A stretch of 63,743 nt of DNA from IMG/VR virus record IMGVR_UViG_3300050014_000315, positions 1 to 63,743 of that record, one strand, 5' to 3'. Positions within the stretch are counted from its first letter, which is position 1. Every line of letters begins with the position of its first letter. Of this stretch, positions 5,685 to 63,743 are shown piece by piece. Source of the DNA: a virus. Position numbers and translations under genes: made by a program. The notes under the pieces were generated by a model. It made no database searches, had not been told where the DNA came from, and saw only the letters and a program-made list of their open reading frames with translations.

Positions 5685-6878
5685 CTATGCCGCGATCATG
5701 TGAATTGAACCCCAGTGCCCGTTAGTGCCAGTTACCGGAGATCCAGAACTCTGAAATGCAAAGAATTCCACGATGTCATTGACCGCCAAGCGGGCAAACG
5801 ATGTGACATGGGCCGTTCCATTCGGGCTTTCCCCGATATGGGATGGCGCACCGGCTGGGTCAGATCCGTTGATCTTCACTTGGAGCACCGTGATATACGA
5901 AGTGCTCGACATGTTGATATAGCCGGTAATCATGTACCAGCCGGCGGTCTGGCAGGTGAACCTGGAAGGGTTAACGCTTGTCGAATGGATTCCGCCAACA
6001 TCTTTGACGTTAGTATCAAATTGGATAGCGCCTGCGGAAGTTGGGATGGTCCATGATGCAGACCGGTATGCAAGGCTGTGTTGCGCCACAAGTGCTGGAC
6101 CTTGCGGGCCAGTTGCACCTGTCGGGCCAGTAGCACCAGTGCTTCCTGTAGGACCAGTTGGACCAGTTGGTCCTGTTGCACCCGGAGTCCCAGCCGATCC
6201 CGTCAATCCGGTTGGTCCAGTTGGTCCCGTTGCTCCAGTCGCTCCGGTTGGTCCAGCGGAGCCCGTCAGCCCTGTCGGGCCTACAGAACCCGTTGCTCCA
6301 GTCGCTCCGGTCGGCCCCACCATTGACGTTCCAGCGGGCCATACGCCGCCCGCTTTTGGACCGTACAAATAGTTGGTGGTGGTGCGAATGTAGAAGTTCC
6401 CGTCTGAACCTTCAGTAGTAGGGGCGGCAGTACCGTACAGAACCGTATTTGACGCTCCAGTTGGGTTCCATATTGATCCGTTGACCGTCACTGGGCTGCC
6501 CACAATATCCAATTCCAGCGGGGCTCCCGTGTTGTGATCCCACGATGCGATATTGGCTTTCTGGTCCGCAAATGTGAGGTCGAGCCCCTGCCCCGCCACC
6601 GTCTCCAAGCCTCCCTGCACATGGATTCCGCCTAGTATTCGATCACCCGACACATAGGAGCGAGAAGGTCTACGGGGGTCGCGCGTATCGGGAGAAGCCA
6701 GTTCCTTATGGCGATTTTCCAAATTGTCAATCGCCCCCTGCGCTTGGTCAAGTGCCCCCGCGATGGCTGTTAACGCGTCCTGCACCGCTGGATAGGTGAT
6801 AGTTGAGATTGCCGCTCGCACGGTCTGCGCCGCGCCGCGAAGGTTCGATACTGATGGAGTTCCTGATTCTCGTGGCAT
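5685..6878 (-). CDS. collagen-like tail-fibre protein
   Basis: About 80 residues in the middle (~190-275) are continuous Gly-X-Y triplets, mostly GPTG/GATG, a bacterial/phage collagen-like triple helix. The N-terminal ~90 residues contain a helical segment that probably trimerises and attaches the fibre. The C-terminal ~120 residues form a beta-rich, C1q/TNF-like globular head (a pattern such as [10 protein letters not shown]). Proteins of this design are usually fibre or head-fibre adhesins. The start overlaps the stop of the 749-aa tail gene by one base. Confidence 0.8.
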
Positions 6879-19027: not shown

Positions 19028-20929
19028 CTAGTTGTAGAGTTGTTTGGCCCGCCGCGAACTCAATCGCGGGATGTAGAACGGTTCACCGCTGGCGCTCGCC
19101 GCGGCGAAATCAGCTTCCAATTTCTGCGCCACCTGGCACTTTACGTTCCCGTCCAGTTCTCCGCCGCGCATTCCCGCCACCATCGCCATCCGCTGCTCCA
19201 TCTGAACGCGCAACGGGGCTCTGATGGTTTCCTTGCTGTGTGAGAAGACGGCGTAGCGGAAACCGTCATAGACGTTATCCAGCGGATCTTCTTTAAGCTT
19301 CATTACGTCTTCGGGATTCTTCTCATCGCGTGCTCGGGTAAGCAGCGATTCAATGAGCATTGGGCAACAATCGTGGATCAAAACTCCGGGGAGCGTCTCC
19401 GGGCGAGACTGGCGCTCACAAGCATCCCGATAGTCCATCGCGCGGGAGGCATCCACCTGGAGTAGACGCATGAAAAGCTTCTGGTCAAATCGCTGAACCT
19501 CAACCGTGGTGATCGGCCACCATCGCAACAGCGACCGGATGTACTGGACACCCGCCACGCGCTGATTCGCGGCCTTGCGGACGATGATTCCGAATCGCTG
19601 CTGCTCTTCCATACGGGTGATGAACTCGCTCACGGTCCCTTTGTTGTCCGTGTAAGCCATTCCACTAACGGAGCCGACGCCTCCCACCCCGTCTTCAGCT
19701 AATACAATGGCCGACTGTGGCCCGAGTACATGAGCGATTCCCTGCCCGATTTGATCCGCGATGGCGCGCTGATCGTTCCGCTTGTCCCAAGCATCTGGCG
19801 AAAGGTACATTGTGATTACGCCAGAATCCAGACCTCGCAAATCTTCCAGCGTGGCTAGCGCGATCTCCGCTCCCCACGATTCAGCGCCCATGCCGGAGCG
19901 AACCATCTCCCGGTAAATGTGTGTGCGCTGATCGTCATTGTCGCAGCCCCAGTACACCGCGCCTTCGTGAGCATAACCCCAATCCATTCCGATGAAGCGA
20001 TTCAACCACGGGCTCAGAGTCTTCGACGGGATCACATGCCGCGCCTGCATGGGCTCTCCAACCATCGGGCCAGTAGCGCGAAACTCGGAAAGCATCAAAC
20101 CGGAGAGCGCATCCCAGTCCCCGTCTAGCATCGCGCGCCGCGTGGATGGGTCCAGGTCCAGTAGGTTCTTGATATATCCGGGGTCGTTTTTCTCCAACGC
20201 CGGGTTATCGGAAAGCCTCGCCGGGATGTAGATTCTGGTCTTCCCTGTGGCCTTATCGTTGATGCGAGTATTCGGCGGAACAACTGCTCCGCTGGCATCC
20301 TTCGCCTTGACGAATCGGTCGCGAACCCACCCATGGCCGGCGTTGCCTGGATTTGCCGTCAAGAGCGCCTGCGTCCGAAGCTCTGGGTATACGGATCGCA
20401 AACACGTTAGCACCATCTTGTACGACTTAAGGTCTGGTACCAACGTGGCTTCTTCAAGCAGTAGCCGGTGGAACTCCTGCCCTAAGTACTTCTCATAAGC
20501 GTCCTTATCGTCCAAATGGCCCAGGATGATTTTTGCCCCGGTGGGGAATTCGAACATCGCCAATGGGCGTTCACGAAACTCCGCTCCGATGGGGCCGTAG
20601 ATGCGCTTGGCTTTGTCGATCCAATCTCCCATGTCCGTCAAGTTGCGGCGGAGGACCAGCGCGCGATAGTTCGGATGATTGATATAGCTCACATCCGCCG
20701 GGCGCGTATGCGGTTGAAGGTTTCCGCTTACCAGCCAAACGATCCCTGCAGCGGTTTTTCCCCCGCCGCGGGCGCCTCCGTATAGGATCTCATCTTCTTG
20801 CGCGAGGAATACCGCCGTCTGGGGCCCGGGATGTGGACGCCAGAGTACGCTTACTCCCTCAGGCGCCTCATCGTTTACATTACCGATGATTGTTTGCGAA
20901 CGAACCTGTTGCTGCTTTTTTGCTGCCAT
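19028..20929 (-). CDS. terL: terminase large subunit (packaging ATPase/nuclease)
   Basis: This 633-aa motor pumps DNA into the prohead through the portal and cuts the concatemer. The Walker A is GGARGGGKT (residues 51-59). The Walker B is in HRLLLEEA around residue 155. The RNase-H-like nuclease domain shows IGMDWGY, a mid-domain SPDAWDKR acidic site, and a final DNVYDGFRY. All expected catalytic acidic residues appear present. The putative small subunit is not adjacent; it lies about 6 kb upstream, beyond the recombinase and HNH genes. Confidence 0.93.
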   Translation of the reverse strand: MAAKKQQQVRSQTIIGNVNDEAPEGVSVLWRPHPGPQTAVFLAQEDEILYGGARGGGKTAAGIVWLVSGNLQPHTRPADVSYINHPNYRALVLRRNLTDMGDWIDKAKRIYGPIGAEFRERPLAMFEFPTGAKIILGHLDDKDAYEKYLGQEFHRLLLEEATLVPDLKSYKMVLTCLRSVYPELRTQALLTANPGNAGHGWVRDRFVKAKDASGAVVPPNTRINDKATGKTRIYIPARLSDNPALEKNDPGYIKNLLDLDPSTRRAMLDGDWDALSGLMLSEFRATGPMVGEPMQARHVIPSKTLSPWLNRFIGMDWGYAHEGAVYWGCDNDDQRTHIYREMVRSGMGAESWGAEIALATLEDLRGLDSGVITMYLSPDAWDKRNDQRAIADQIGQGIAHVLGPQSAIVLAEDGVGGVGSVSGMAYTDNKGTVSEFITRMEEQQRFGIIVRKAANQRVAGVQYIRSLLRWWPITTVEVQRFDQKLFMRLLQVDASRAMDYRDACERQSRPETLPGVLIHDCCPMLIESLLTRARDEKNPEDVMKLKEDPLDNVYDGFRYAVFSHSKETIRAPLRVQMEQRMAMVAGMRGGELDGNVKCQVAQKLEADFAAASASGEPFYIPRLSSRRAKQLYN

Positions 20930-21607: not shown

Positions 21608-21769
21608 ATGGCTCCCGATATGCCAAACAAAAGTGAACCGCGTATTCACATTCGGATCGGGGATTCCCTGCTCCGAAAGCTGGACGAACTGCGCGTCAAG
21701 GAAGTCCCCCCGCCGAGTCGCCAAGCCATCATCCGGCGTATGATCGCAGCATGGAAGGAAACCAAATGA
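21608..21769 (+). CDS. ribbon-helix-helix DNA-binding protein
   Basis: This ~53-aa product has the core PRIHIRIGDSLLRKLDEL...SRQAIIRRMI, a MetJ/Arc-type strand-helix-helix fold that acts as a dimeric transcription regulator. GGAG lies 11 bases before this ATG. Two other in-frame ATGs (21569 and 21620) are possible starts. The stop overlaps the next gene (ATGA). As the first gene of the plus-strand operon it is a candidate autoregulator of this cluster or of the divergent late promoter. Confidence 0.7.
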   Translation: MAPDMPNKSEPRIHIRIGDSLLRKLDELRVKEVPPPSRQAIIRRMIAAWKETK

Positions 21770-22113
21770 AACGAACCCTACTCGCATTCGCACTTCTCGC
21801 CGCCACCGCGTTCCCTGCTGAACGCCACCTATGGCTGCTCACTCAAACCAATGTCACGGGCCTTCCCCAGACGAATACGGCGGCCACGCTGTACGGGGTT
21901 CAGGTCTTTTGCGGCTCCGACGATCCCGCCGTCACTGGATGGGATATCGCGATTTCCGTGTTAATGCCAAACGGCGAGCACCGCACGTTCACCGGACAGC
22001 TGAAGCGCCGAACGGATGGCCCCGATACGCCATACTCTGATATCTGGGTGGCGTGGGTTGGGGAGCGCATGGACTTCACGGTGGAGCGGCTGGAGGTAAC
22101 ACCCCATGTCTGA
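21766..22113 (+). CDS. small secreted protein (Sec signal peptide)
   Basis: This 115-aa product begins MKRTLLAFALLAATAFPAE, a clear type I signal peptide with probable cleavage after FPA. GGAAGGAAA precedes the start. The mature ~95 residues are beta-rich with VFCGSDDPAVTGWDIAIS and YSDIWVAWVGERMDFTVE. Function is unknown. Its location in an early-type regulatory operon, not next to lysis genes, suggests a periplasmic role during infection such as superinfection exclusion, but that is inference. Confidence 0.7.
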   Translation: MKRTLLAFALLAATAFPAERHLWLLTQTNVTGLPQTNTAATLYGVQVFCGSDDPAVTGWDIAISVLMPNGEHRTFTGQLKRRTDGPDTPYSDIWVAWVGERMDFTVERLEVTPHV

Positions 22114-53174: not shown

Positions 53175-53379
53175 CATGCCGATGGATAAGATCGACGTGA
53201 CCTGTCCATACTGCTGGTGGCGAGGCAAGCGGCACCCGTACACGTGGGCGGCGCGGCCGTGCCCACGCTGCGGGGAGCCGGTGAGCGGGGAGTGGATCTT
53301 CAAGACCGCCGCCATCCCTGATCGCGAGCAGGCGGCGATTGACATGCTACGCGACATGCGCGGAGGAGCAGATGATTGA
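53167..53379 (+). CDS. 70-aa zinc-ribbon protein
   Basis: CPYCWWRGKRHPYTWAARPC continues to PRCGEP, a clear four-Cys ribbon. A helix (DREQAAIDMLRDMRG) follows. It overlaps the upstream gene, and precedes the transposase in the same direction. It may bind nucleic acid or assist the transposase. Confidence 0.65.
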   Translation: MCDMPMDKIDVTCPYCWWRGKRHPYTWAARPCPRCGEPVSGEWIFKTAAIPDREQAAIDMLRDMRGGADD

Positions 53380-53423
53380 TGGTTTGGCGTGGGACATTCC
53401 ACAAATCACGAAAGGGGAGACGG

Positions 53424-54689
53424 ATGTCGGTGACAACCTGTTTTCTACACTGGAATCCGCATAGCCACAATATGAGGGTCGTAGCGGGGAAGCCTATACA
53501 GCCCGAAGTCTGCCCGCGTTGCGGTGTGGAAAACCCGCGCGTCTACAAGCACGACCAGCAAGACCAGACGTTCATGGACACGCCCATGCACGGCAAGCGT
53601 GTCGGTATCCAGGTCGTTCGCCAGCGGTGGCGTTGCCTGGAGTGCGGCAAGACCTTCCAGCAACTCCTGCCAGAGATGGATGAGAAGCGGAATATGACGC
53701 GGCGCCTGGTGGACTACATCCAGCAGCACTCCCTGGTCCGAACGTTCACCGAAGTGGCTGACGACGTGGGAGTCAACGAGAAGACCGTCCGGAATGTCTT
53801 CCGCGAGTACGTTGCACTGCTGGAGGAAGACCGCGAGATTGAGACGCCAACATGGCTGGGCATTGACGAACTGTTCCTGATCCGGAAGCCGCGGTGCATC
53901 TTCACCGACGTGAAGAAACGATCCATCGTTGACTTGCTGGCCAAGCGGGACAAGCTGACGGTCTCCAAATGGCTCACAAACCTACCCCATAAGGCCACAG
54001 TTGAAGTGGTGACCATGGATATGTGGAAGCCCTACCGGGACGCGGCACAGGCACTCCTGCCGGCCGCCAAGGTGGTCGTAGACAAGTTCCACGTCGTCAA
54101 GATGGCAAACAAGTGCTTGGACGATACCAGGAAGCGACTGCGGGCCGATATGACCACTGCTGACCGGCGCAAACTCATGCGTGACCGGCATATCATCCTG
54201 AAACGCGAGAAGGACTTGGACGTGATGGACCACGCGGCCATGGAAGTGTGGACCGGAATGTTGCCGGAACTTTACTACGGCTACCAGGCCAAGGAACGGT
54301 TCTTTGGCGTCTACGACGCACCAGACCGCAAGGAAGGGCAGGAACGATACGACGCTTGGCTGGGCAGTCTGGACATGCTCACGCGCGTGAACTTCAAGGA
54401 ACTCATCACTGCCTGCGAGAACTGGAAGCCGGAGATCCTGAACTACTTCGGGACCGGCGCGACGAACGCCTACACGGAAGCCGCCAACGGGCTGGCCAAG
54501 ATAGCGAACCGCAACGGAAGCGGCTACTCGTTCGAGGCGATACGCGCCAAGATCATCTACGGTAGTTCGGTCAAACGCGGCAAGTTCGGCGAGTCGTGCG
54601 TGGACGAGGAAATCTTCGCGGAACTCACGCGCCCGGTTGTGGAAACTCCACAGCCGACCGAAGAAGAGGAGACAGAAGGTGGTCAGTGA
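53424..54689 (+). CDS. ISL3-family DDE transposase
   Basis: AAAGGGGAG lies before this ATG; an earlier in-frame ATG (53376) overlaps the preceding gene. In this 421-aa product an N-terminal zinc finger (C30, C33, C71, C74) and a helix-turn-helix (VADDVGVNEKTVRNVFREY) are followed by the catalytic DDE domain: GIDEL (D148), TMDMWKPYRDAA (D199) and AYTEAANGLAK (E352). Length and residues are intact. No terminal inverted repeats or target duplications were found at either side, and the gene follows the operon without a break, which argues for a phage-resident gene rather than a fresh insertion. Confidence 0.85.
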   Translation: MSVTTCFLHWNPHSHNMRVVAGKPIQPEVCPRCGVENPRVYKHDQQDQTFMDTPMHGKRVGIQVVRQRWRCLECGKTFQQLLPEMDEKRNMTRRLVDYIQQHSLVRTFTEVADDVGVNEKTVRNVFREYVALLEEDREIETPTWLGIDELFLIRKPRCIFTDVKKRSIVDLLAKRDKLTVSKWLTNLPHKATVEVVTMDMWKPYRDAAQALLPAAKVVVDKFHVVKMANKCLDDTRKRLRADMTTADRRKLMRDRHIILKREKDLDVMDHAAMEVWTGMLPELYYGYQAKERFFGVYDAPDRKEGQERYDAWLGSLDMLTRVNFKELITACENWKPEILNYFGTGATNAYTEAANGLAKIANRNGSGYSFEAIRAKIIYGSSVKRGKFGESCVDEEIFAELTRPVVETPQPTEEEETEGGQ

Positions 54690-54719: not shown

Positions 54720-55166
54720 TTATTTGACTCCGATGATCGTGAGCAATGACTTGTTCTTCTTCGGTTGGACTGTTTTCGCCGCCGCACTCGCTGCCGCGAT
54801 GGCTTCGCGATTTCGGGAGATCCCCGCGCGGTTATCGGCGTCTGACTGCCTGTTCCGTAACTCTGCCCGGTCGGTGCGTTCATCCACGATGGTCCGGTAC
54901 TGGGTGAGTTCGATTGCCAGCCGATTGAAGCCGTCAGCCATCGCTTCATTGGCGTTGATCTGCCGCAGGTTGATGCCGTCCTGGTTTATTTTGGCGGTCT
55001 CCAACGCGGCAAGGCGGGCGTTCTGCTGGCCTTGCCAGTATCCGGCGGCGGAGACTACCCCGGCCACGGAAAATAAGTAGGAGGCTAGGGTGAGCATCAG
55101 CGCGAGTAGGCTGATATTCACCCCTCCGGGAATCTTCGTAATTACTGGCTCGCTGTGGTGGTTCAT
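54720..55166 (-). CDS. 148-aa membrane-anchored coiled coil (spanin-like candidate)
   Basis: AAGGGAGA lies before the start MNHHSEPVITKI. One transmembrane helix (ISLLALMLTLASYLFSVAGV) follows a short N-terminus. A long polar helical region (QQNARLAALETAKINQDGIN onwards) would face the periplasm and ends in a basic KKNKSLL tail. Topology and place next to the holin candidate fit an inner-membrane spanin (Rz-like), though no matching outer-membrane lipoprotein partner is clear. Confidence 0.55.
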   Translation of the reverse strand: MNHHSEPVITKIPGGVNISLLALMLTLASYLFSVAGVVSAAGYWQGQQNARLAALETAKINQDGINLRQINANEAMADGFNRLAIELTQYRTIVDERTDRAELRNRQSDADNRAGISRNREAIAAASAAAKTVQPKKNKSLLTIIGVK

Positions 55167-55210: not shown

Positions 55211-55426
55211 TTACTTACTAGCCTGGTCCTTACTGGGGGGCGCATTCACGCCCGAAACATTCGAGTCTTTCCCGAAGATTCCCAAACTAGCGAATCCTCC
55301 GGCCATGACGAACGCAGCGGTTACGATCGCCCACTTAGGGAGAGGTACGCCTGCCGTGCTCAGAGCCAGCACCAGCCCGGCGCCGGATGAAACAAATCCC
55401 GATAGAGTCGTTTTCCAAGATCGCAT
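55211..55426 (-). CDS. putative holin (71 aa, two membrane spans)
   Basis: GGAGAAACC lies before the start MRSWKTTLSGFVSSGAGLVL; a longer frame upstream is Arg/His-rich and is the shadow of the neighbouring gene. Two short hydrophobic helices (GAGLVLALSTAGV and WAIVTAAFVMAGGFASLGIF) are separated by PLPK. A polar tail follows. Size and topology fit a small holin that opens the inner membrane for lysis. Confidence 0.6.
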   Translation of the reverse strand: MRSWKTTLSGFVSSGAGLVLALSTAGVPLPKWAIVTAAFVMAGGFASLGIFGKDSNVSGVNAPPSKDQASK

Positions 55427-55434
55427 GGTTTCTC

Positions 55435-55965
55435 CTACGGCTTGAACGAAATTCCGATGCGCGGAATCAGGTTCCACGCGCCGTTGATATATACCCCGCC
55501 CAGCGGTACCACTACGGCCCACTGCGGCTTGAAACGGTAGATAATGGTCGCCTGGAAGCTCCCGGCCAGCGATACGTTCACGCCGCTTGGTTGCGCCTGG
55601 CTGAAACCCGCGCCCGCATCGCCGCCGATCAGAAACCGCCAGTTGCCGGCGGCGTAGACCTGTTTGTGAACGCCCTGGCGCACGCTGGAACTGAAGCCCC
55701 AGTACACGCGTTTGGTAATCGGGTCGATGATTTGCACCGGCGCAATATCCGTGCTGGTGCTCAGATACAGCCCGAGCGAACTGGCGACCGGGTACACAGC
55801 GGAAGCAAACAAGTTCACGCGCGGATTGCCGATCTGGTTGAAACTCGCGCCGGCGGAAATGTACGTCGGCATGGCAACCGTGGCGACGGTGGGCGCGATG
55901 GGTGTAACGGTCTGCGCCGCCGCCGTGAGGCAGAGGCACGCGAATAGAGCGGTGATCGTTTTCAT
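55435..55965 (-). CDS. 176-aa signal-peptide outer-membrane-barrel-like protein
   Basis: MKTITALFACLCLTAAAQ is a Sec signal peptide with an AAA-Q type cut. The mature part is made of short alternating amphipathic strands separated by turns (GASFNQIG, NLFASAVYPV, YLSTSTDIAP, WGFSSSV, FQATIIYRF) and ends in RIGISFKP with a terminal aromatic-rich strand, as in small outer-membrane beta barrels. In a lysis neighbourhood it may disrupt the outer membrane, or it may block superinfection. No family is recognised. Confidence 0.65.
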   Translation of the reverse strand: MKTITALFACLCLTAAAQTVTPIAPTVATVAMPTYISAGASFNQIGNPRVNLFASAVYPVASSLGLYLSTSTDIAPVQIIDPITKRVYWGFSSSVRQGVHKQVYAAGNWRFLIGGDAGAGFSQAQPSGVNVSLAGSFQATIIYRFKPQWAVVVPLGGVYINGAWNLIPRIGISFKP

Positions 55966-55975
55966 AAGTCTCCTA

Positions 55976-56278
55976 TTATCCGTCCGCTGGAAGATCCGGC
56001 AGGCGTTCTATTGTGACCCGCACATGGGAACCACAGTAACTTGTCAAATGGCCGTTGATGGCTATGGTTGTTTGCAACTCCACAGCATTGTCGGGCCACA
56101 AACAACCCATCCGGGAATCGTCCTGCCTTACCGTTCCATGGATCTCGCGTATTCCAAAAATGGTTTTCTTGGGTAGAACTACGCCTTCGACGACGGTCTT
56201 CGTTACCCACGGTTCAGGTTCATTGCAGTGAGCGTTCAGCCACGCCATCGAATCATTGGAGAGTTCAATCGTTTCCAC
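55976..56278 (-). CDS. 100-aa hypothetical protein
   Basis: METIELSNDSMAWLNAHCNE starts a beta-rich product with SYCGSHVRVTIERLP near the end. It lies between the barrel-like gene and two small helical genes with short gaps, so it is in the late operon. Function is unknown. Confidence 0.6.
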   Translation of the reverse strand: METIELSNDSMAWLNAHCNEPEPWVTKTVVEGVVLPKKTIFGIREIHGTVRQDDSRMGCLWPDNAVELQTTIAINGHLTSYCGSHVRVTIERLPDLPADG

Positions 56279-56286
56279 GAGTCTCC

Positions 56287-56532
56287 TTATTTGGGCGCGA
56301 ACGTTGCGAGCGGACTCTGCTGGGCGGCCGCCTGCATTTCTTCCTTGAGCTTGTCGAACGCGAGCAACATCACGCGAACCTGCACGGTCAGCCCGGCCAG
56401 ATGGTCCACCGCGTTCAACGAGATGACTTGATAGGTGTCGCCGCCGTCGTATCCCACGTGGCTCAGGTACTTCTGGGACTTGACAGATTCGGCACGTAGT
56501 TTTTCCACTTCGATGGTGAATTGGTTTGGCAT
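56287..56532 (-). CDS. 81-aa hypothetical protein
   Basis: The start MPNQFTIEVEKLRAESVKSQ follows AAAGGAG; an earlier in-frame start is unlikely. The middle contains HLAGLTVQVRVMLLAFDKLK and the end is Ala/Gln-rich. No family is recognised. Confidence 0.6.
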   Translation of the reverse strand: MPNQFTIEVEKLRAESVKSQKYLSHVGYDGGDTYQVISLNAVDHLAGLTVQVRVMLLAFDKLKEEMQAAAQQSPLATFAPK

Positions 56533-56533
56533 T

Positions 56534-56830
56534 TCACTCCTTTGGTTTGAGCCGTACCTCAACCGAGGCCCCTCCATTAAGCGCCGCGAGGAAGGTCGTT
56601 ATCTGATCGGCCATTCGCGCGAATGGCGCGATGTCATGGGCGGCCTTGTCCTCAGTGGCTTCTACGCCCAAGATGGCAGCCGAGATGAGATTCGTCTGCT
56701 GCAACATCAGGTTGTTGACCTCGGCACGGATTCCGGCTTGGAGCGCCGGGATTATCTCGGCCTTCAGACGGTCCAACATCGGGTCGATGGTGTCCGTGTC
56801 GAAATCTTTTGCGCTGATTCCTATTCCCAT
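56534..56830 (-). CDS. 98-aa helical hypothetical protein
   Basis: MGIGISAKDFDTDTIDPMLD begins a mostly helical product (RLKAEIIPALQAGIRAEVNN). It is one base from the next gene. It resembles small tail-associated chaperones or fibre-assembly proteins in design only. Confidence 0.6.
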   Translation of the reverse strand: MGIGISAKDFDTDTIDPMLDRLKAEIIPALQAGIRAEVNNLMLQQTNLISAAILGVEATEDKAAHDIAPFARMADQITTFLAALNGGASVEVRLKPKE

Positions 56831-56881
56831 ATAATCTCCATTTTACTGCACCGCCACGCCGCGCTCCAGCAGCTTTGGATT

Positions 56882-59800
56882 TCACGGGATCACCACACTT
56901 GGTATCCTGGCCGCCATATCCGCCCGCGCCGCCGCAACTTCGCCGATCAACTCCACGTCACTCAATGCGCGCGGGAACACCGCCAGTTCCCCAAGCGTGC
57001 CGTAGAACGGCTGCGTTCCACCGGCCAGCGAGCCAAGCGTGATCGCCCCCGTCAATGATGACGAATCACTCACCGTCCCGAGGGCCGTGAATGTGCCGTT
57101 CGCCGCGATTCCAGCGCTGCTGTAGATCGTCGTCGTCGATCCGCTGCGCCGCAGAATCATCGTGGCGAAACTGCCATCCGTCGTAAGCGAAAAGGCGCTT
57201 GACGTTGTGCTGCCGATCTTGACCTTCCAGGAATTCGCCGTAGTGGAATTCCTGGAGATTGTAATTTTGCCCGCCTTGTCTAGCGGTGTTTCTGCACTCG
57301 GAATCGTCCCATTCGAATCGTGCTCGAAGGTAAGCAACAACGTGAAGTCGGTCGCCAGCGTGGCGTTGTACCCCGTTGTGATTGTCACCGTCTGCTGACT
57401 GCCATAACTGGCAGCCATCGGAAAGCCGAAGCCATTCATGCCCTGCCCGCTATACGACATGTTGGCGAGTCCGGTCGTGTTGTACGTACCGGGAATCGAG
57501 GCCGCATTCGAAAGCACCGTAGACATGGAGGCCGACGTGAAGGCGTAGAGCAAATCCGGCACAATGGCGTGCTGCCCGCGCCCGTTGCCAAAGTACTGGC
57601 GCGCTACTGCCGATGTGCGCGGAGCGAAGATCAGATCTCGGTACGTTGGGCTGTAACGATCCACGTCCGGATTCGTATAGTCCTGCTGGACATAGCTGCC
57701 CGTAGTACTCATGCGAACGCGCGCCGTACCGTTGCCGAGGTCTACATAGCTTGGCCGGATCAGATCCGGAAATACTGGGTAGTATAGTGGGTGAGTCACC
57801 GGGTCTTTGGGAATTGTGTACACCACTACCGCATCGTTCCAGGACCAAGGGTACCTCCCAAGGTCATAAATCAGAATCGAGCCTCCCTGATCTAAAGACG
57901 TAGAATTCGGGTTGGCATAGCTGATTGCCCCCCATCGATTAAACGGAGATCCAAGCCAGAATATCTTGGTGCGCCTACCGAGATTAAGAACGGTGCCAAT
58001 GCTGGCATCGTACGTGGTCCAATTGGAATCTAGCAACCCATCAGACCCGCTGCCACTACCGGTGTAGACCTGATACCGTCCTGCGAACTGGGATGCCTCC
58101 GTGATCGCTATGTCCTCGACACGAACCCTCACGATCCAATTTCCAATATTTCCCACCGAGGGGGTGAGCGCAGATCCATACACCCATCCATCGGTGCCAA
58201 CGTTATGAGGGCAGGTAAATTGCGTACCCGCCGTTCCACCCCAATCCTGGCAAAAGTTTGCAGCCTGCCATGCCAGCGCAAGAGTCGTGGAACATCCTAC
58301 TGCTGTGGTTGGATAGTCGTAATTTCCTTGCCCTGCGCCAGTGAAGGTCGAACCACTCACACTTGGTCCAGTATTACTCTGAGGCCCAATTGTAGTGGAC
58401 CAGTGATCTGCCGTCTTCTCAACGACCGTGCAAGCCGCCGATCCGCCAGCACGCGGCAGATACTGGTACATCTTCCCGCGCACAGAGACCAGGCCCTCCG
58501 CGTAGGACCTGCCGCCATCTGCGGTGTACGTCGTTGGATGATTATTGCCTCCAGATGTCGTGCCACCGGTGTTGTTCGACCCCGTGGTGTTGCCCAGTTG
58601 GGTCGCGGTAAGGCCATCCGCACTCAGTTTGCCTACGCCAACTGAATTGAAACAGCAGGACAACGCACCCACGTAATCGTTGCCGTTCACGTACCAGTTA
58701 CCATCGTCGGCCATGGTGCCGAAGAGGGTATCGCTATTGTATGATCGCCCGTTGCTGGGCATCCCGTTCTTACCCGTCCCCTGATCGTCGTAGTAAATCG
58801 GGTTACCGTAGCTGGCCACCGTGAACGGCACGCTGGTCAGCGCGGCGGGGGTCGCTACCCCAGTTGTCTCGTAGCTGATCGTTGTGGTTCCACTAGTGTC
58901 CACCGACGACGCAAAGCAGTAGTACGTCGTGCTCGGATTCGGTACCACAACCGCGATGGAGTGCGAGGTTACACCGTAGTAGGTATCGCCGGCTTTGACG
59001 GCATCCACAACCGGTGTGGCATACGAATACGGTCCACCGGATACCGTGCCGCACGAGCCCTGCGAGGACTGCTTAGTCCCGGTCGTCCATGTCAGGAGGA
59101 CCGAATTCGCCGTCACCGCCGTGGCCGTTGCCGAAAAACTCGGAGAGATGTTGTTGGTCTGCTCCGACCCGAACGTCACGTACGTGCCAGGAGCATGTTG
59201 ATTTCGGTACTCCGTCATGATCCAATCAGCCGATCTCGCAATTTCGGTGGAATGGCGAAATTCATCTACCGTAGCAGGGTGAAAAGCCAGATCAAATGAC
59301 TGGCCTAATCTAGCTGGTGAAAAAACAGTAAAAGTGCCGCAACCGGATTGGCTCGCAGCTTGCGTTCCGTCCACATATAACCGGCACATACCATCAATAT
59401 TGGTATATGTCGCTACGGCGTAATGCCATGTGCCATCGGCAATGGCGGGAGATGAGCTGTCAACTGTGACCACTAACATGATACTCCGCAAATAATTGGT
59501 CCCGGCAACAGTGTACATGAGCATCCCGACATTTCGCTGGTCCACCAATACGTTGGTGTTGGCGGAAGACCCAGAGAACCATATGGATGTCGTGTAGCTT
59601 GATGTGGACGGAACTGCCGTGGAATAGATCACATTCTGATTTGTGCCGTTAAAACTCTGACCTTTCCCCAGCGTTCCAGCACCGAACGCTCCAGTCACCT
59701 GCGTTGATAAATTCGTAGTGCTATTGTAACCACTCTTTACATCGATAGCTTGAGCGTTCGATGCTTCATCCAAGTGCGAGACGATCACGTAGTTTGAGTC

Positions 59801-60214
59801 CCACGCGCTTGCTCGCGTGCTCTGGTAAGTCGAAACGCCGGAGTTCCCGTAGTACATCGAGACCAGCACGTCCGATCCGTGAGTAAGCGTGCCGATCTTG
59901 ACGTGGATTTCCGCCGTCCCAGCTGAATACGACACCAGATCCCACAGCAACGCAGAACCGGAGCCGGAGCAGGAAGTCGAATTATCAAACACGATGTCGA
60001 AGCCGCTGGCGTTCAGGACGTGGGCGGATAGATTGGAGTCCGCAGCCGGGTTGATGAGTGCCGTGAAATTGGAGAGGTCGGCGGAGCCGCTGACCATCCC
60101 GCCAGACCCACCGTTGTAGGTTTTGATGGTCACCACCTTGCAGTACGTGTACCCGTTGGGGTACGCGCCCCATGCCGCAGTCGCCAGGGCTAATGAGCAG
60201 AGCAAGCGTCTCAT
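56882..60214 (-). CDS. 1110-aa exported adhesin/fibre-like protein (signal peptide, DUF2341, LamG domains)
   Basis: MRRLLCSLALATAAWGAY is a Sec signal peptide. Residues ~25-130 match a DUF2341-like beta domain (VLVSMYYGNSGVS). A LamG/concanavalin-like domain follows (~140-350: SIWFSGSS, DGTWHYAVATY, RLYVDGTQ), then a fibronectin-III-like unit (~355-450), a large Gly/Asn/Ser-rich middle, and a second LamG-like domain at the C-terminus (~930-1100). Many paired Cys (e.g. SCSGSGS, GMCRLY, SGCGTF, LSCCFN) fit an oxidising compartment. The design is of a carbohydrate-binding surface protein, but the gene lies inside the virion late operon. The stop is TGA with 12 further in-frame codons to the next stop. 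Confidence 0.75.
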   Translation of the reverse strand: MRRLLCSLALATAAWGAYPNGYTYCKVVTIKTYNGGSGGMVSGSADLSNFTALINPAADSNLSAHVLNASGFDIVFDNSTSCSGSGSALLWDLVSYSAGTAEIHVKIGTLTHGSDVLVSMYYGNSGVSTYQSTRASAWDSNYVIVSHLDEASNAQAIDVKSGYNSTTNLSTQVTGAFGAGTLGKGQSFNGTNQNVIYSTAVPSTSSYTTSIWFSGSSANTNVLVDQRNVGMLMYTVAGTNYLRSIMLVVTVDSSSPAIADGTWHYAVATYTNIDGMCRLYVDGTQAASQSGCGTFTVFSPARLGQSFDLAFHPATVDEFRHSTEIARSADWIMTEYRNQHAPGTYVTFGSEQTNNISPSFSATATAVTANSVLLTWTTGTKQSSQGSCGTVSGGPYSYATPVVDAVKAGDTYYGVTSHSIAVVVPNPSTTYYCFASSVDTSGTTTISYETTGVATPAALTSVPFTVASYGNPIYYDDQGTGKNGMPSNGRSYNSDTLFGTMADDGNWYVNGNDYVGALSCCFNSVGVGKLSADGLTATQLGNTTGSNNTGGTTSGGNNHPTTYTADGGRSYAEGLVSVRGKMYQYLPRAGGSAACTVVEKTADHWSTTIGPQSNTGPSVSGSTFTGAGQGNYDYPTTAVGCSTTLALAWQAANFCQDWGGTAGTQFTCPHNVGTDGWVYGSALTPSVGNIGNWIVRVRVEDIAITEASQFAGRYQVYTGSGSGSDGLLDSNWTTYDASIGTVLNLGRRTKIFWLGSPFNRWGAISYANPNSTSLDQGGSILIYDLGRYPWSWNDAVVVYTIPKDPVTHPLYYPVFPDLIRPSYVDLGNGTARVRMSTTGSYVQQDYTNPDVDRYSPTYRDLIFAPRTSAVARQYFGNGRGQHAIVPDLLYAFTSASMSTVLSNAASIPGTYNTTGLANMSYSGQGMNGFGFPMAASYGSQQTVTITTGYNATLATDFTLLLTFEHDSNGTIPSAETPLDKAGKITISRNSTTANSWKVKIGSTTSSAFSLTTDGSFATMILRRSGSTTTIYSSAGIAANGTFTALGTVSDSSSLTGAITLGSLAGGTQPFYGTLGELAVFPRALSDVELIGEVAAARADMAARIPSVVIP

Positions 60215-61365
60215 TGAAGTGTCACCCCACAGATTCTAGTCGTAATCGAGCCCCCCGTCAGATTACTCAGATATCCGGCTGGATTAACGCTTGTGTTAAC
60301 CAGTTGGAGATACACGTCCTGGGTACCGGCTGCCGTGGTGGCAAGCGAGATACCGCCACCAGTCTCTGCGAATGCCGGACTACTCGCAGCCATCAACGGG
60401 AAGCTAGACTTATACCCGCACGGAGTACCGGTAGTCCCGATGCACGCCGCAAGCGCAGTAACGGCCGCGCCACCCGTCGTGCCGCTCACAGTCAAGGTAC
60501 TGGTTTCCTCTATTCGAAAAGAGCGTGGCGACCAGTATGCCGGACACGTAAAGAGCCGCACTTGGTACGAGGTCGCCGCTTGCCCGGAGTAGTCGGTGTA
60601 ACTCGACACCACTGTAGTACACGTCTCAGGAGCCGCGTAGGTTGTTGCGCCGCTATGCAGATTTGCATTGGCCGAAACCGGTAGGTCGGCTGTTACCAAA
60701 ACGCCGAAGGCGGGATCGGCCCCCGTGTGCCCTCGTAGCACTTGATTGTCCGCGCCTACCGCGATTCCCTTGGCGTCGGTGGCCGTTGTCCAAACAGGTA
60801 GTTGGTGGATTAAAGGTGTGCCGCTGGAGGTCACTGTTCCAGAACCCGCGCCGGATGCCCCAGTATCCCCACGCGGAATCGTGAAATTGAAAGTCGCAGC
60901 AGAGGACGAACCTGCGTTCGTGACTATCACGCTGGAGCCAGCCGCTCCTGTGGTCACTGTGCCTACCGCGATGGTCGCCGCCGCGCCGTTGGTGCCATTC
61001 GTCCCATTGGTTCCCGCCGCACCAATCCCGCCAGTCGTCGCGTAGCAGTTCAGCGTCTCGGGGGTTGCTACTCCGAAGACCGAGGAATTCGCGCCTGCCG
61101 TGGTCTGACTCACACTGACTGGCGCATTGCTGGAGCTATCGAAGCACCAGATCTGGTTAACCGCATTCCCCAAGTTGTGCGTACAGGTATTGGTGGCTCC
61201 CGTCGCGCTGATCGGGTTCTCCGTGCAGGCTTTCGGTGTTACCCCAGAACCGCTAGAACTACCAGGAGGGCATGTCATCATGCCCAGCAGCGGATCGTAC
61301 CACGGCTTGCATTGGCCGAAGGAGAACCCTGCGAAAATCACAAGCGAAATTAGAAGTTTGGTCAT
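60211..61365 (-). CDS. 384-aa exported Gly-rich/collagen-like fibre protein
   Basis: MTKLLISLVIFAGFSFGQ is a Sec signal peptide, followed by an early Cys/Pro region. Residues ~115-190 contain Gly-x-x runs (GAAGTNGTNGTNGAA, GDTGASGAGSG). The C-terminal ~120 residues are a beta-rich head (FRIEETSTLTVSGTTGG) ending in TTRICGVTLQ. The stop overlaps the 1110-aa start (ATGA). It looks like a tail-fibre distal protein that has acquired an export signal. Confidence 0.7.
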   Translation of the reverse strand: MTKLLISLVIFAGFSFGQCKPWYDPLLGMMTCPPGSSSGSGVTPKACTENPISATGATNTCTHNLGNAVNQIWCFDSSSNAPVSVSQTTAGANSSVFGVATPETLNCYATTGGIGAAGTNGTNGTNGAAATIAVGTVTTGAAGSSVIVTNAGSSSAATFNFTIPRGDTGASGAGSGTVTSSGTPLIHQLPVWTTATDAKGIAVGADNQVLRGHTGADPAFGVLVTADLPVSANANLHSGATTYAAPETCTTVVSSYTDYSGQAATSYQVRLFTCPAYWSPRSFRIEETSTLTVSGTTGGAAVTALAACIGTTGTPCGYKSSFPLMAASSPAFAETGGGISLATTAAGTQDVYLQLVNTSVNPAGYLSNLTGGSITTRICGVTLQ

Positions 61366-61373
61366 AGAATCTC

Positions 61374-61934
61374 CTATTGATTGGTGGACGCCGTTGAACA
61401 GGCCAGCCCGTACCCCGTTCCCGTGCTCTCAAAAACCGTGCCGTCGAGCAGACTGCTGGAGTTCAGCGGCATCGCCAGAATGGCCCATCTCGTTGCCGTC
61501 AAGAGCGGAAACTTCGTGGTAATTACCAGCCCCGCATCCGTGTATGTGGCATCCGCTACCGCCGCCGTGGTGATTGTGTACGCCGTGCTGCTGGTGACAG
61601 ATCGGACGGTGTACGTTCCGTTTAGGTCCGTGTCCACTGTCGCGCCGGTGATCGTTACCCTCGCGCCAACGTACAGGCCATGCGCCGCCGAGGTGGTCAC
61701 CGTGCCAACATTGGCGGAAACTACAATATTGGTTAACGTGGAATTGCTCACCTTCTGCGTTGTGATAGGGCCAGCCTGCGGAGACTTGCAGACGAAGGTG
61801 ATATTGCCGCTCCCGTCGTAGAGCAGATGAGTCACAATTGGGCTGTTCGGGAACGCTCCCACTTGGTTAACGTCGGCGCCCCCTTGTGCAAAACAGGCGG
61901 CGGTGAGGATGAAGATTGCGAAGATCGTTTTCAT
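61374..61934 (-). CDS. 186-aa exported protein with FCCH-like module
   Basis: MKTIFAIFILTAACFAQ is a textbook Acidobacteria-like signal peptide. Residues ~80-150 hold a module with TTSAAHGLYVGARVTITG, DLNGTYTV and a following TSSTAYTI strand, which closely resembles the module of the 749-aa tail protein and, less so, of the 311-aa connector candidate. The C-terminal ~35 residues are Ser/Leu-rich. Coupled with the neighbouring exported proteins, it probably works with them. Confidence 0.7.
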   Translation of the reverse strand: MKTIFAIFILTAACFAQGGADVNQVGAFPNSPIVTHLLYDGSGNITFVCKSPQAGPITTQKVSNSTLTNIVVSANVGTVTTSAAHGLYVGARVTITGATVDTDLNGTYTVRSVTSSTAYTITTAAVADATYTDAGLVITTKFPLLTATRWAILAMPLNSSSLLDGTVFESTGTGYGLACSTASTNQ

Positions 61935-61941
61935 GTGTCTC

Positions 61942-63743
61942 CTAATGGATTCTAACCCGTGGTGGCATTACGCCATTGTGGGATTTTCTGATCGATTCAA
62001 AGATTGCGCCACGTTCTTTCGCACCGCGCGGCTTCATCATCGGATGGAGGCGAACCGGGGAAGGCATAGGCGCTTGTGCCATGCGGGGAGAGCCTATATG
62101 GATGGGCGGCGGCGCTCCGATGGGCACGATGGCTTCGGGGCCGGCCTCTCCTACCGTGGCGACGGTTGGTCGGCGGATGATGCCGCCTCGGGCGAGTTTG
62201 GGCGGATAGTTTTGAAGCTCATCTTGCGTCCATGGTTGTCCGGTAGCGGGGTTGATGTTGGCGCTTTCTTCCGTTTTCCCTGCCATACCTGCGGTGTTGA
62301 ATACCCGAGAAGTGATCGGAGACGTGAATGCGTTCCCGGTCCCGTATGCTCCGCGCGCCGCTGCGATTCTTACACTAGGGGAAGATAGTGCTTCCTGCGC
62401 TCCGAGCACTGCGGCTGCGCCCGCTGGTCCACCAGTCATCCCTCCAGCCAAAGTTGCCGCCATTGCGCCAGTGGGTCGGGTTGCCCGATTGATTGTGTCC
62501 TGGATAATCCCCGCTTTTTCGCTTGTCCGCTGTGCCGCATCCCGAACAGGAGTAAGGCTCTGAATTTGCTGGTTTATGGGTTGCGCGCCAGGGACCGCAC
62601 GGTTGAATTCAGCGGACATCTCATGGTATGCGCGATTCCCCAGCTTTCGCGCGCTGTCCTTCAGCGGAACGGCTGCGTCGAATCGGGTGAAGTCGTCTCC
62701 AAATTGGCGCTTCATCCCCAAATAATCCATAGGTTTCTGGAAGTTTGAAATTACGGGAGCGGGTGGCGTCCCAGGGACAACGGTGGGGGTTGGCGGAGGC
62801 GCTCCAATAATTGGAGAAGGAGGCGGGGTGCTGTAGGTGATTGGAGTTCGCGATCCAGTTGGGTATTCCGTTGTTCCTGTGAACCCAGGTCGCGGGGTGT
62901 TCAACTGCGTCCGCATCGGGGTTAGGTCGTCTACCAACCCATTGGCGGCCTGTACTCCAGAAATTCCCGAATCGACCGCGTTGCGCGCAGGCGTAAGCGA
63001 TGGGGTGCTGCCTGCGTTCTGCGCTGCCATGGCCCGCGCCTCCAGTTCGGTATTCAGCTCTCCTAGTTTTTTGGCGGAACTCGCCTTTATCGCTTCCGGC
63101 GTAAGCCCCGATGTCAGTTCCAGAGCAGCCTTTGCCGGGGTGGCTCCATATCGCTCCGTTTTCCCCGGTAGCCCCAGCGCACTTTTGATGAGCCCCTTCC
63201 CCGTGGCCTTGATGCCATATCCAAGTGGCTTGGTGACGAGATTTAGTGGGTTAGTGAGGTCGCTGGTGGCTCCAGCAAACTCTGCTGCCCGCGTAGCGCC
63301 CGACGCCACACGTGGAAGACTGGCGAAGTCTGCCGTTGCTGCCGTTCCGCGAGCGAGGCCACCGAAACCGCTAGCAATGGCCGATACATCCGCTACAACA
63401 CCCACCGGATCGGTGCGCAGCGTCTCTGCAAATGCTTGCGGGCTTCCATAACGCTGCTTAAGGGCATCCCACATGGAGTCAAGTTGTTGCGCGGCGTCAT
63501 GCTCTCCAGTGCCAGGAGTTCCAACCGGAATCCCTGCCTTTTCCGCCAATCCCACGGGTATCGATCCAATGGACCGAAGAGTATCAAGGGGATGTTCAAA
63601 AGCAGTTGCGACATTCTCGATTAACCGAGCACTGCTACCTGGAATATTGGAAAGCATGTCCTCGGTATAGCCGAGAACTCTCTGCCCTCCACTGACGCGC
63701 TGGGGCGCAAAGCCAAGTACCTTATTCTGCTCATCGGGATGAA
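61942..63743 (-). CDS. main part of 634-aa internal virion protein (begins at 285 across the circular junction)
   Basis: The frame is open to the end of the window and continues into 1-285, giving a 634-aa protein. It contains a helical N-terminal third (SNIPGSSARLIENVATAFEH, GVVADVSAIASGFGG), a long Ala/Gly/Pro/Thr-rich middle, and a C-terminal KLARGGIIRRPTVATVGEAG...PEAIVPIG, the motif shared with the 195-, 318- and 602-aa proteins. It carries a basic end. An ejection or internal role is inferred. The Met at 63657 is not the start. Confidence 0.85.
   Translation of the reverse strand, partial: HPDEQNKVLGFAPQRVSGGQRVLGYTEDMLSNIPGSSARLIENVATAFEHPLDTLRSIGSIPVGLAEKAGIPVGTPGTGEHDAAQQLDSMWDALKQRYGSPQAFAETLRTDPVGVVADVSAIASGFGGLARGTAATADFASLPRVASGATRAAEFAGATSDLTNPLNLVTKPLGYGIKATGKGLIKSALGLPGKTERYGATPAKAALELTSGLTPEAIKASSAKKLGELNTELEARAMAAQNAGSTPSLTPARNAVDSGISGVQAANGLVDDLTPMRTQLNTPRPGFTGTTEYPTGSRTPITYSTPPPSPIIGAPPPTPTVVPGTPPAPVISNFQKPMDYLGMKRQFGDDFTRFDAAVPLKDSARKLGNRAYHEMSAEFNRAVPGAQPINQQIQSLTPVRDAAQRTSEKAGIIQDTINRATRPTGAMAATLAGGMTGGPAGAAAVLGAQEALSSPSVRIAAARGAYGTGNAFTSPITSRVFNTAGMAGKTEESANINPATGQPWTQDELQNYPPKLARGGIIRRPTVATVGEAGPEAIVPIGAPPPIHIGSPRMAQAPMPSPVRLHPMMKPRGAKERGAIFESIRKSHNGVMPPRVRIH
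63562..63743. repeat. terminal redundancy, copy 2
   Basis: This is the same block as the window start with a T at 63617 in place of C at 56. It marks the assembly overlap that closes the circle at about 63,561 bp. Confidence 0.95.

Follow-up and report, generated by a model that had tools for sequence, protein, structure and literature searches.

Secretion signals and extra cysteines on fibre- and spike-type proteins suggest export of tail fibres in a phage and several otherwise unrelated ones

Tailed-phage assembly is taught as a cytoplasmic process, and the locus analyzed here raises the question of why a phage would place secretion signals on proteins built like tail fibres and tail spikes, and whether these signals are genuine. 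An earlier note, made from sequence alone, had reported that four late-operon products begin with export signals, and had proposed that these products might anchor to the envelope, block superinfection, alter the adhesion of the infected cell, or help lysis. To address this, we analyzed the complete virus record of 63,743 bp (IMGVR_UViG_3300050014_000315, hereafter "the window"). The two ends of this record (positions 1-182 and 63562-63743) overlap by 182 bp at 99.5% identity, so that it represents a circularly complete genome of about 63.6 kb. The late genes run on the minus strand from the terminase (19028-20929) through portal, scaffold, capsid, and tail genes, assigned by gene order and by homology to the related contig G006 (see below), across the ends of the record, and through the block of interest to a holin-like gene. 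The features of this region are as follows:

61942..63657, minus strand: 571-aa tape-measure/ejection-like virion protein directly upstream of the block, without a leader (weak PHROG tape-measure matches)
61374..61934, minus strand: 186-aa gene with a predicted leader (aa 1-16, ACFA^Q), a small beta-rich protein with two mature cysteines and an inserted domain common in phage structural proteins; proposed partner of the fibre encoded next
60211..61365, minus strand: 384-aa gene with a predicted leader (aa 1-17, FSFG^QC), a collagen-like, tail-fibre-type protein with about 11 cysteines and a degenerate form of the N-terminal motif QC-x5-NPxTGxLDC
56882..60214, minus strand: 1110-aa gene with a predicted leader (aa 1-16, AAWG^A), with a DUF2341 + LamG-like N-terminal part, an uncharacterised middle, and a second LamG-like C-terminus (by eye)
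55976..56830, minus strand: three small genes without leaders (100, 96, and 98 aa) between the 1110- and 176-aa genes
55435..55965, minus strand: 176-aa gene with a predicted leader (aa 1-17, AAA^Q), beta-rich, without cysteine after the leader; possibly a small outer-membrane barrel, judged by eye only
55211..55426, minus strand: holin-like 71-aa membrane protein directly downstream of the block (sequence inspection)
54720..55166, minus strand: 148-aa protein with an N-terminal transmembrane segment, of lysis-cassette type (sequence inspection)
5685..6878, minus strand: 397-aa collagen-like fibre without a leader in the same late operon, which serves as an internal control

The observation of four leader-bearing late genes was confirmed. 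The 186-, 384-, and 176-aa starts are each preceded by a strong AGGAG Shine-Dalgarno sequence, while the ATG of the 1110-aa gene overlaps the previous stop codon and has a weaker GGGGTGA. The leaders and likely cleavage sites are MKTIFAIFILTAACFA^QGG (186 aa), MTKLLISLVIFAGFSFG^QCK (384 aa), MRRLLCSLALATAAWG^AYP (1110 aa), and MKTITALFACLCLTAAA^QTV (176 aa), i.e., three of the four are followed by glutamine. To evaluate these leaders as Sec/SPase I signals, we applied an n/h/c-region rule of our own devising (basic n-region, hydrophobic core, AXA-type cleavage site), which was passed by 4/4 of these genes, 0/19 of the other late genes tested in the window (Fisher p = 1.1e-4), and 7/183 called genes of the phages Tunturi_3, _4, and _5 used as background. 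Composition-preserving shuffles passed at 3%, 7%, 6%, and 23%, so that the Ala-rich leader of the 176-aa protein is the weakest when taken alone. A fifth leader-bearing gene (115 aa, MKRTLLAFALLAATAFPAERH...) is found outside the late block and on the other strand (21766-22113, plus strand).

Some details of the earlier description required qualification. The note had singled out the 1110-aa protein as Cys-rich, but the 384-aa protein is more so (about 2.7% versus 1.1%), and the mature 176-aa protein contains no cysteine. The DUF2341 assignment (PF10102) falls below the Pfam cut-off (17 vs 23.4 bits), although it is supported by a homologue in G006 (29% over 374 aa, pairwise E 2e-29), while LamG rests on a weak pentraxin match (E 0.0024) and on those homologues. 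The designation "tail module" is inferred from position, between the tape-measure/ejection-like 571-aa protein and the holin-like gene. For the 384-aa protein, only PHROGs of unknown function were matched. The inserted beta domain of the 186-aa protein also occurs in the leaderless 749-aa tail protein of the same genome (6878-9127, minus strand; phrog_9998 in both). AlphaFold2 yielded a pLDDT of 52 from the alignment of the 186-aa family and of 35 for the 176-aa protein modelled as a single sequence, both too poor for a fold search.

Next, we searched for relatives of the block. (Labels beginning with G and L denote our own designations of viral contigs and loci.) A scan with the 186-aa protein identified L002/L006, in which the homologue (39%) carries a leader and is followed by a second leader-bearing gene whose mature part starts QCSRLVFNPTTQKLDC, and L003, with three consecutive leader-bearing genes, the last of which is cut off at the contig end and LamG-like. 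Homologues of the 186-aa protein with leaders are present in L006, L011, L012, and L014. Pattern scans for QC-x5-NPT-x3-LDC and QC-x5-NPxTGxLxC hit nine viral loci including L006; in all but the non-coding L007 the motif directly follows a leader, with L010 and L013 carrying the same sequence. The bodies behind this motif differ, and were judged by eye to be C1q-like, collagen-like, tandem NxAFGxxAL repeats, and others. In 84,980 bacterial and archaeal genomes the first pattern gave two hits, both non-coding, and the motif is therefore viral as far as these collections show. Importantly, however, these pattern searches required the cysteines, so that their presence in the hits is by selection: of the members found otherwise, two (window and L006) have the pair, and one (a 1087-aa protein of the contig G007, QYRLIPNPATGNMDF) has neither. 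Single-protein scans of IMG/VR with the 1110-, 571-, and 176-aa proteins returned no relatives, and INPHARED provided no useful match to the window proteins, to two related small proteins, or to the N-terminus of a spike from L041, while the DUF2341-LamG protein of G006 gave only weak LamG matches there.

The nearest relative found for the window is G006 (69.7 kb), with ten or more matching proteins, mostly in the same order (terminase 37%, capsid 48%). G006 has the same series, i.e., a 776-aa protein, a 202-aa leader protein, a QC-motif fibre, and a large leader protein, before its lysis-type genes. It also carries a second set of leader-bearing fibre-type genes behind the portal (L017, 10506-13481), including the DUF2341-LamG protein homologous to the 1110-aa protein of the window, indicating that one genome can carry two such sets. 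G007 (66 kb) has a series of leader-bearing genes before its lysis-type genes, with a GDSL-like hydrolase inside this run (L019, 14725-15588).

The DUF2341-LamG proteins show that the leader is a clean N-terminal add-on. An alignment scan, based on two sequences since single-protein scans did not reach this part, identified 23 viral DUF2341-LamG loci, of which L036, L037, L042-L045, and L049 could not be classed by leader. A leader precedes the domain in G006, L031, L035, L041, and the window, whereas in others (L028, L030, L038, L039, L046, L048, and more) the protein starts directly at the domain. The junction is precise, as illustrated by L031 (NAFG^AFTYYRSVTID) and the leaderless L028 (M-AFTYYSPVTID), although the L031 leader was called by eye because its charged start fails our rule. 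L031, L035, and L041 carry further leader-bearing fibre or spike genes beside this one, and the 674-aa protein of L041 is a tailspike by PHROGs (phrog_2234, E 1.9e-13) and Pfam (Pect-lyase, E 2.6e-17).

A similar block is also present in cultured phages. Tunturi_1, a podovirus of the acidobacterium Tunturiibacter psychrotolerans (PMC11924767), has five leader-bearing genes (gp12, gp13, gp14, gp16, and gp17) between a tail gene and the endolysin, with 20, 10, 21, 2, and 32 cysteines, respectively, including leaders. Tunturi_2 has the same set, and between the two phages the gp17 leader changes only by conservative hydrophobic or small residues. By contrast, the fibre genes of Tunturi_3, Tunturi_4, and the stretch of Tunturi_5 examined, all from the same host genus, have no leaders, so that the host does not force this trait. 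Tunturi_1 and Tunturi_3 infect the same host strain yet differ completely, one with five leader-bearing spike/fibre-type genes and the other with none.

Overall, runs of 2-5 leader-bearing fibre/spike-type genes were detected in several phage contigs, most of which share little or nothing else. Pairs such as G006-G007, G006-L014, G007-L014, and G006-L031 share one detectable protein above 80 aa, a leader-bearing one, and G007 and Tunturi_1 share only part of a leader-bearing fibre. Most of these are fragments, and the absence of other matches is thus weak evidence. Still, the pattern fits an exchange of export-tagged fibre genes among otherwise different phages, linked to Acidobacteriota through Tunturi_1. 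An Acidobacteriota link for the window, whose signal sequences the note had described as Acidobacteriota-like, is plausible on the same ground. An intact ISL3-family transposase gene beside the lysis genes of the window (53376-54689, plus strand) was uninformative as to the host, as its best plasmid matches were only about 47% identical, in Enterococcus and other bacteria.

We then evaluated whether these proteins display marks of export independent of the leaders. Pooled over the window and Tunturi_1, leader-bearing late proteins contain 1.85% cysteine against 0.44% in other late proteins, i.e., about four times more (Mann-Whitney p = 5e-4; p = 0.001 within Tunturi_1, p = 0.10 within the window). 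This enrichment is not clear-cut within DUF2341-LamG proteins alone, but holds for the blocks as a whole. Tunturi_1 gp12 and the L041 spike share an N-terminal domain with leaderless tailspikes of Serratia phage MTx and E. coli phage ECO1230-10, and the leader-bearing forms have a cysteine pair (NGVC...PGCTVTVY in gp12, GWC...PSCTVTVY in L041) where the leaderless ones have none (PGATVT). The 186-aa family shows the same pattern: leader-bearing members have a cysteine pair, while two small leaderless relatives in L004 and L005 lack both, albeit with small numbers and low identity.

Taken together, these data suggest that the block encodes fibre/spike-type proteins made as Sec pre-proteins. The sequences themselves establish the leaders, the cysteine enrichment, the leader as an add-on, the recurrence in several phage lineages, and the position before the lysis-type genes; export, cleavage, and location outside the cytoplasm are inferred from these, export being likely, and attachment to virions is the most uncertain step. 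In the reading we tentatively favor, the host would export these proteins, signal peptidase I would trim them, often leaving an N-terminal glutamine, and disulfides would form outside the cytoplasm. The proteins would then wait in the periplasm or at the surface, and join virions through a common N-terminal piece (QC-x5-NPxTGxLDC, with the small 186-aa-type partner) when the membrane is breached at or after lysis. This is consistent with the fibre/spike architecture, a shared N-terminal motif on variable bodies, and the usual fibre position before the lysis genes, with the block just upstream of lysis-type genes in the window, G006, G007, L031, L035, Tunturi_1, and Tunturi_2. The pair formed by the small partner and fibre genes is also kept across lineages, although in L004 and L005 the partner has no leader and follows the portal gene. 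It remains possible, although doubtful on present evidence, that a set of tailed phages, at least some infecting Acidobacteriota, finishes its virions outside the cytoplasm by loading receptor-binding fibres that have been secreted, trimmed by signal peptidase, and disulfide-bonded in the periplasm onto particles at or after lysis.

An almost equally weighted alternative is that the proteins are exported but never join the virion, and instead act in the envelope or outside the cell late in infection, by masking or degrading receptors and surface polysaccharide so that progeny do not stick to debris, by blocking superinfection, or by loosening the envelope with the lysis proteins. Some members look enzymatic or lectin-like (the GDSL-like hydrolase of G007, the pectate-lyase fold, a chitobiase C-terminal domain in Tunturi_1 gp17, and DUF2341-LamG), and the block lies next to lysis genes. 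In addition, the leaderless collagen-like fibre of the window and a short leaderless "tail fiber" in Tunturi_1 suggest that the exported set may not be the receptor-binding set, and no tailed phage is known to fit its fibres from the periplasm. A role in outer-membrane modification has been proposed for signal-peptide genes of Porphyromonas phages (PMC10367356). Conversely, one N-terminal motif on variable bodies is what virion attachment would predict, leaderless relatives are annotated tailspikes, and we recognized no large leaderless fibre in Tunturi_1. The interpretation offered in the earlier note is accordingly only partly supported: the export signals are real by sequence, recur in other phages, and come with extra cysteines, but neither an action on the envelope nor a place on the virion is excluded, and the block may represent the phage's own fibres matured outside the cytoplasm instead of a separate extracellular programme.

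Other readings appear less probable. The leaders might not lead to export, with the hydrophobic N-terminus instead staying as a membrane or virion anchor, or being removed by a phage protease during assembly in the cytoplasm, as signal-peptide calls on phage capsid proteins elsewhere were attributed to prohead-protease processing (PMC10367356). We consider this unlikely given the canonical AXA-type sites, about two thirds of them followed by Gln where Gln was not part of the search (about 19 of 31 leaders, with cleavage sites set by eye), the cysteine gain tied to the leader, leaderless homologues that start directly at the domain, and unrelated protein families that all carry the same kind of leader. 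Chance or artefact, i.e., hydrophobic N-termini arising from composition or wrong start codons, is very unlikely. While the 176-aa leader passes in 23% of shuffles and the rule is our own, none of the 19 other late genes pass, the background rate is 7/183, the starts carry ribosome-binding sites, and homologues in many contigs keep the leader.

A repeated, apparently mobile set of fibre and spike genes with Sec leaders and extra cysteines would mean either that some phages complete their virions outside the cytoplasm, or that they secrete their adhesins and depolymerases as free agents. Either would change how soil-phage "secreted enzymes" are annotated, as some may be fibre-type or structural genes, and Tunturi_1 and its host provide a cultured pair in which this question is testable. 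As the note had suspected, our literature searches for exported tail fibres or spikes found no description of such a block, although novelty is provisional since most subscription papers and all preprints lay outside these searches.

Among known systems, the most similar blocks are those of Tunturi_1 and Tunturi_2 (PP887698, PP885685; PMC11924767), with a run of leader-bearing, Cys-rich, fibre/spike-type genes between a tail gene and the lysis genes and a similar genome size (63 kb). However, they have no protein match to the window at E 1e-3, and the genes are annotated only as hypothetical, tail fiber, tail spike, pectin lyase, or virion structural proteins, without mention of signal peptides in the main text. 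The closest precedent found in the literature searched is in Porphyromonas gingivalis phages (proposed Nixviridae; PMC10367356), in which predicted signal peptides are followed by Gln, following the Bacteroidota Q-rule (PMC5837995), and are proposed to use host Sec export; these are five genes of unknown function in siphoviruses of Bacteroidota, not described as fibres, spikes, or a late block. The tailspikes of Serratia phage MTx and E. coli phage ECO1230-10 are homologous to Tunturi_1 gp12 in their TVTVY-type N-terminal domain, but have neither the leader nor the cysteine pair. Phage outer-membrane proteins such as lambda Lom have a signal peptide and are encoded near tail genes (PMC12309495), each being a single OMP and not a fibre/spike protein; a kinship of the 176-aa protein with them rests on inspection by eye and is not supported by its poor model. 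Finally, the position of the block recalls that of the T7-type tail fibre, encoded between internal virion proteins and the holin, although T7 gp17 has no signal peptide and is fitted in the cytoplasm.
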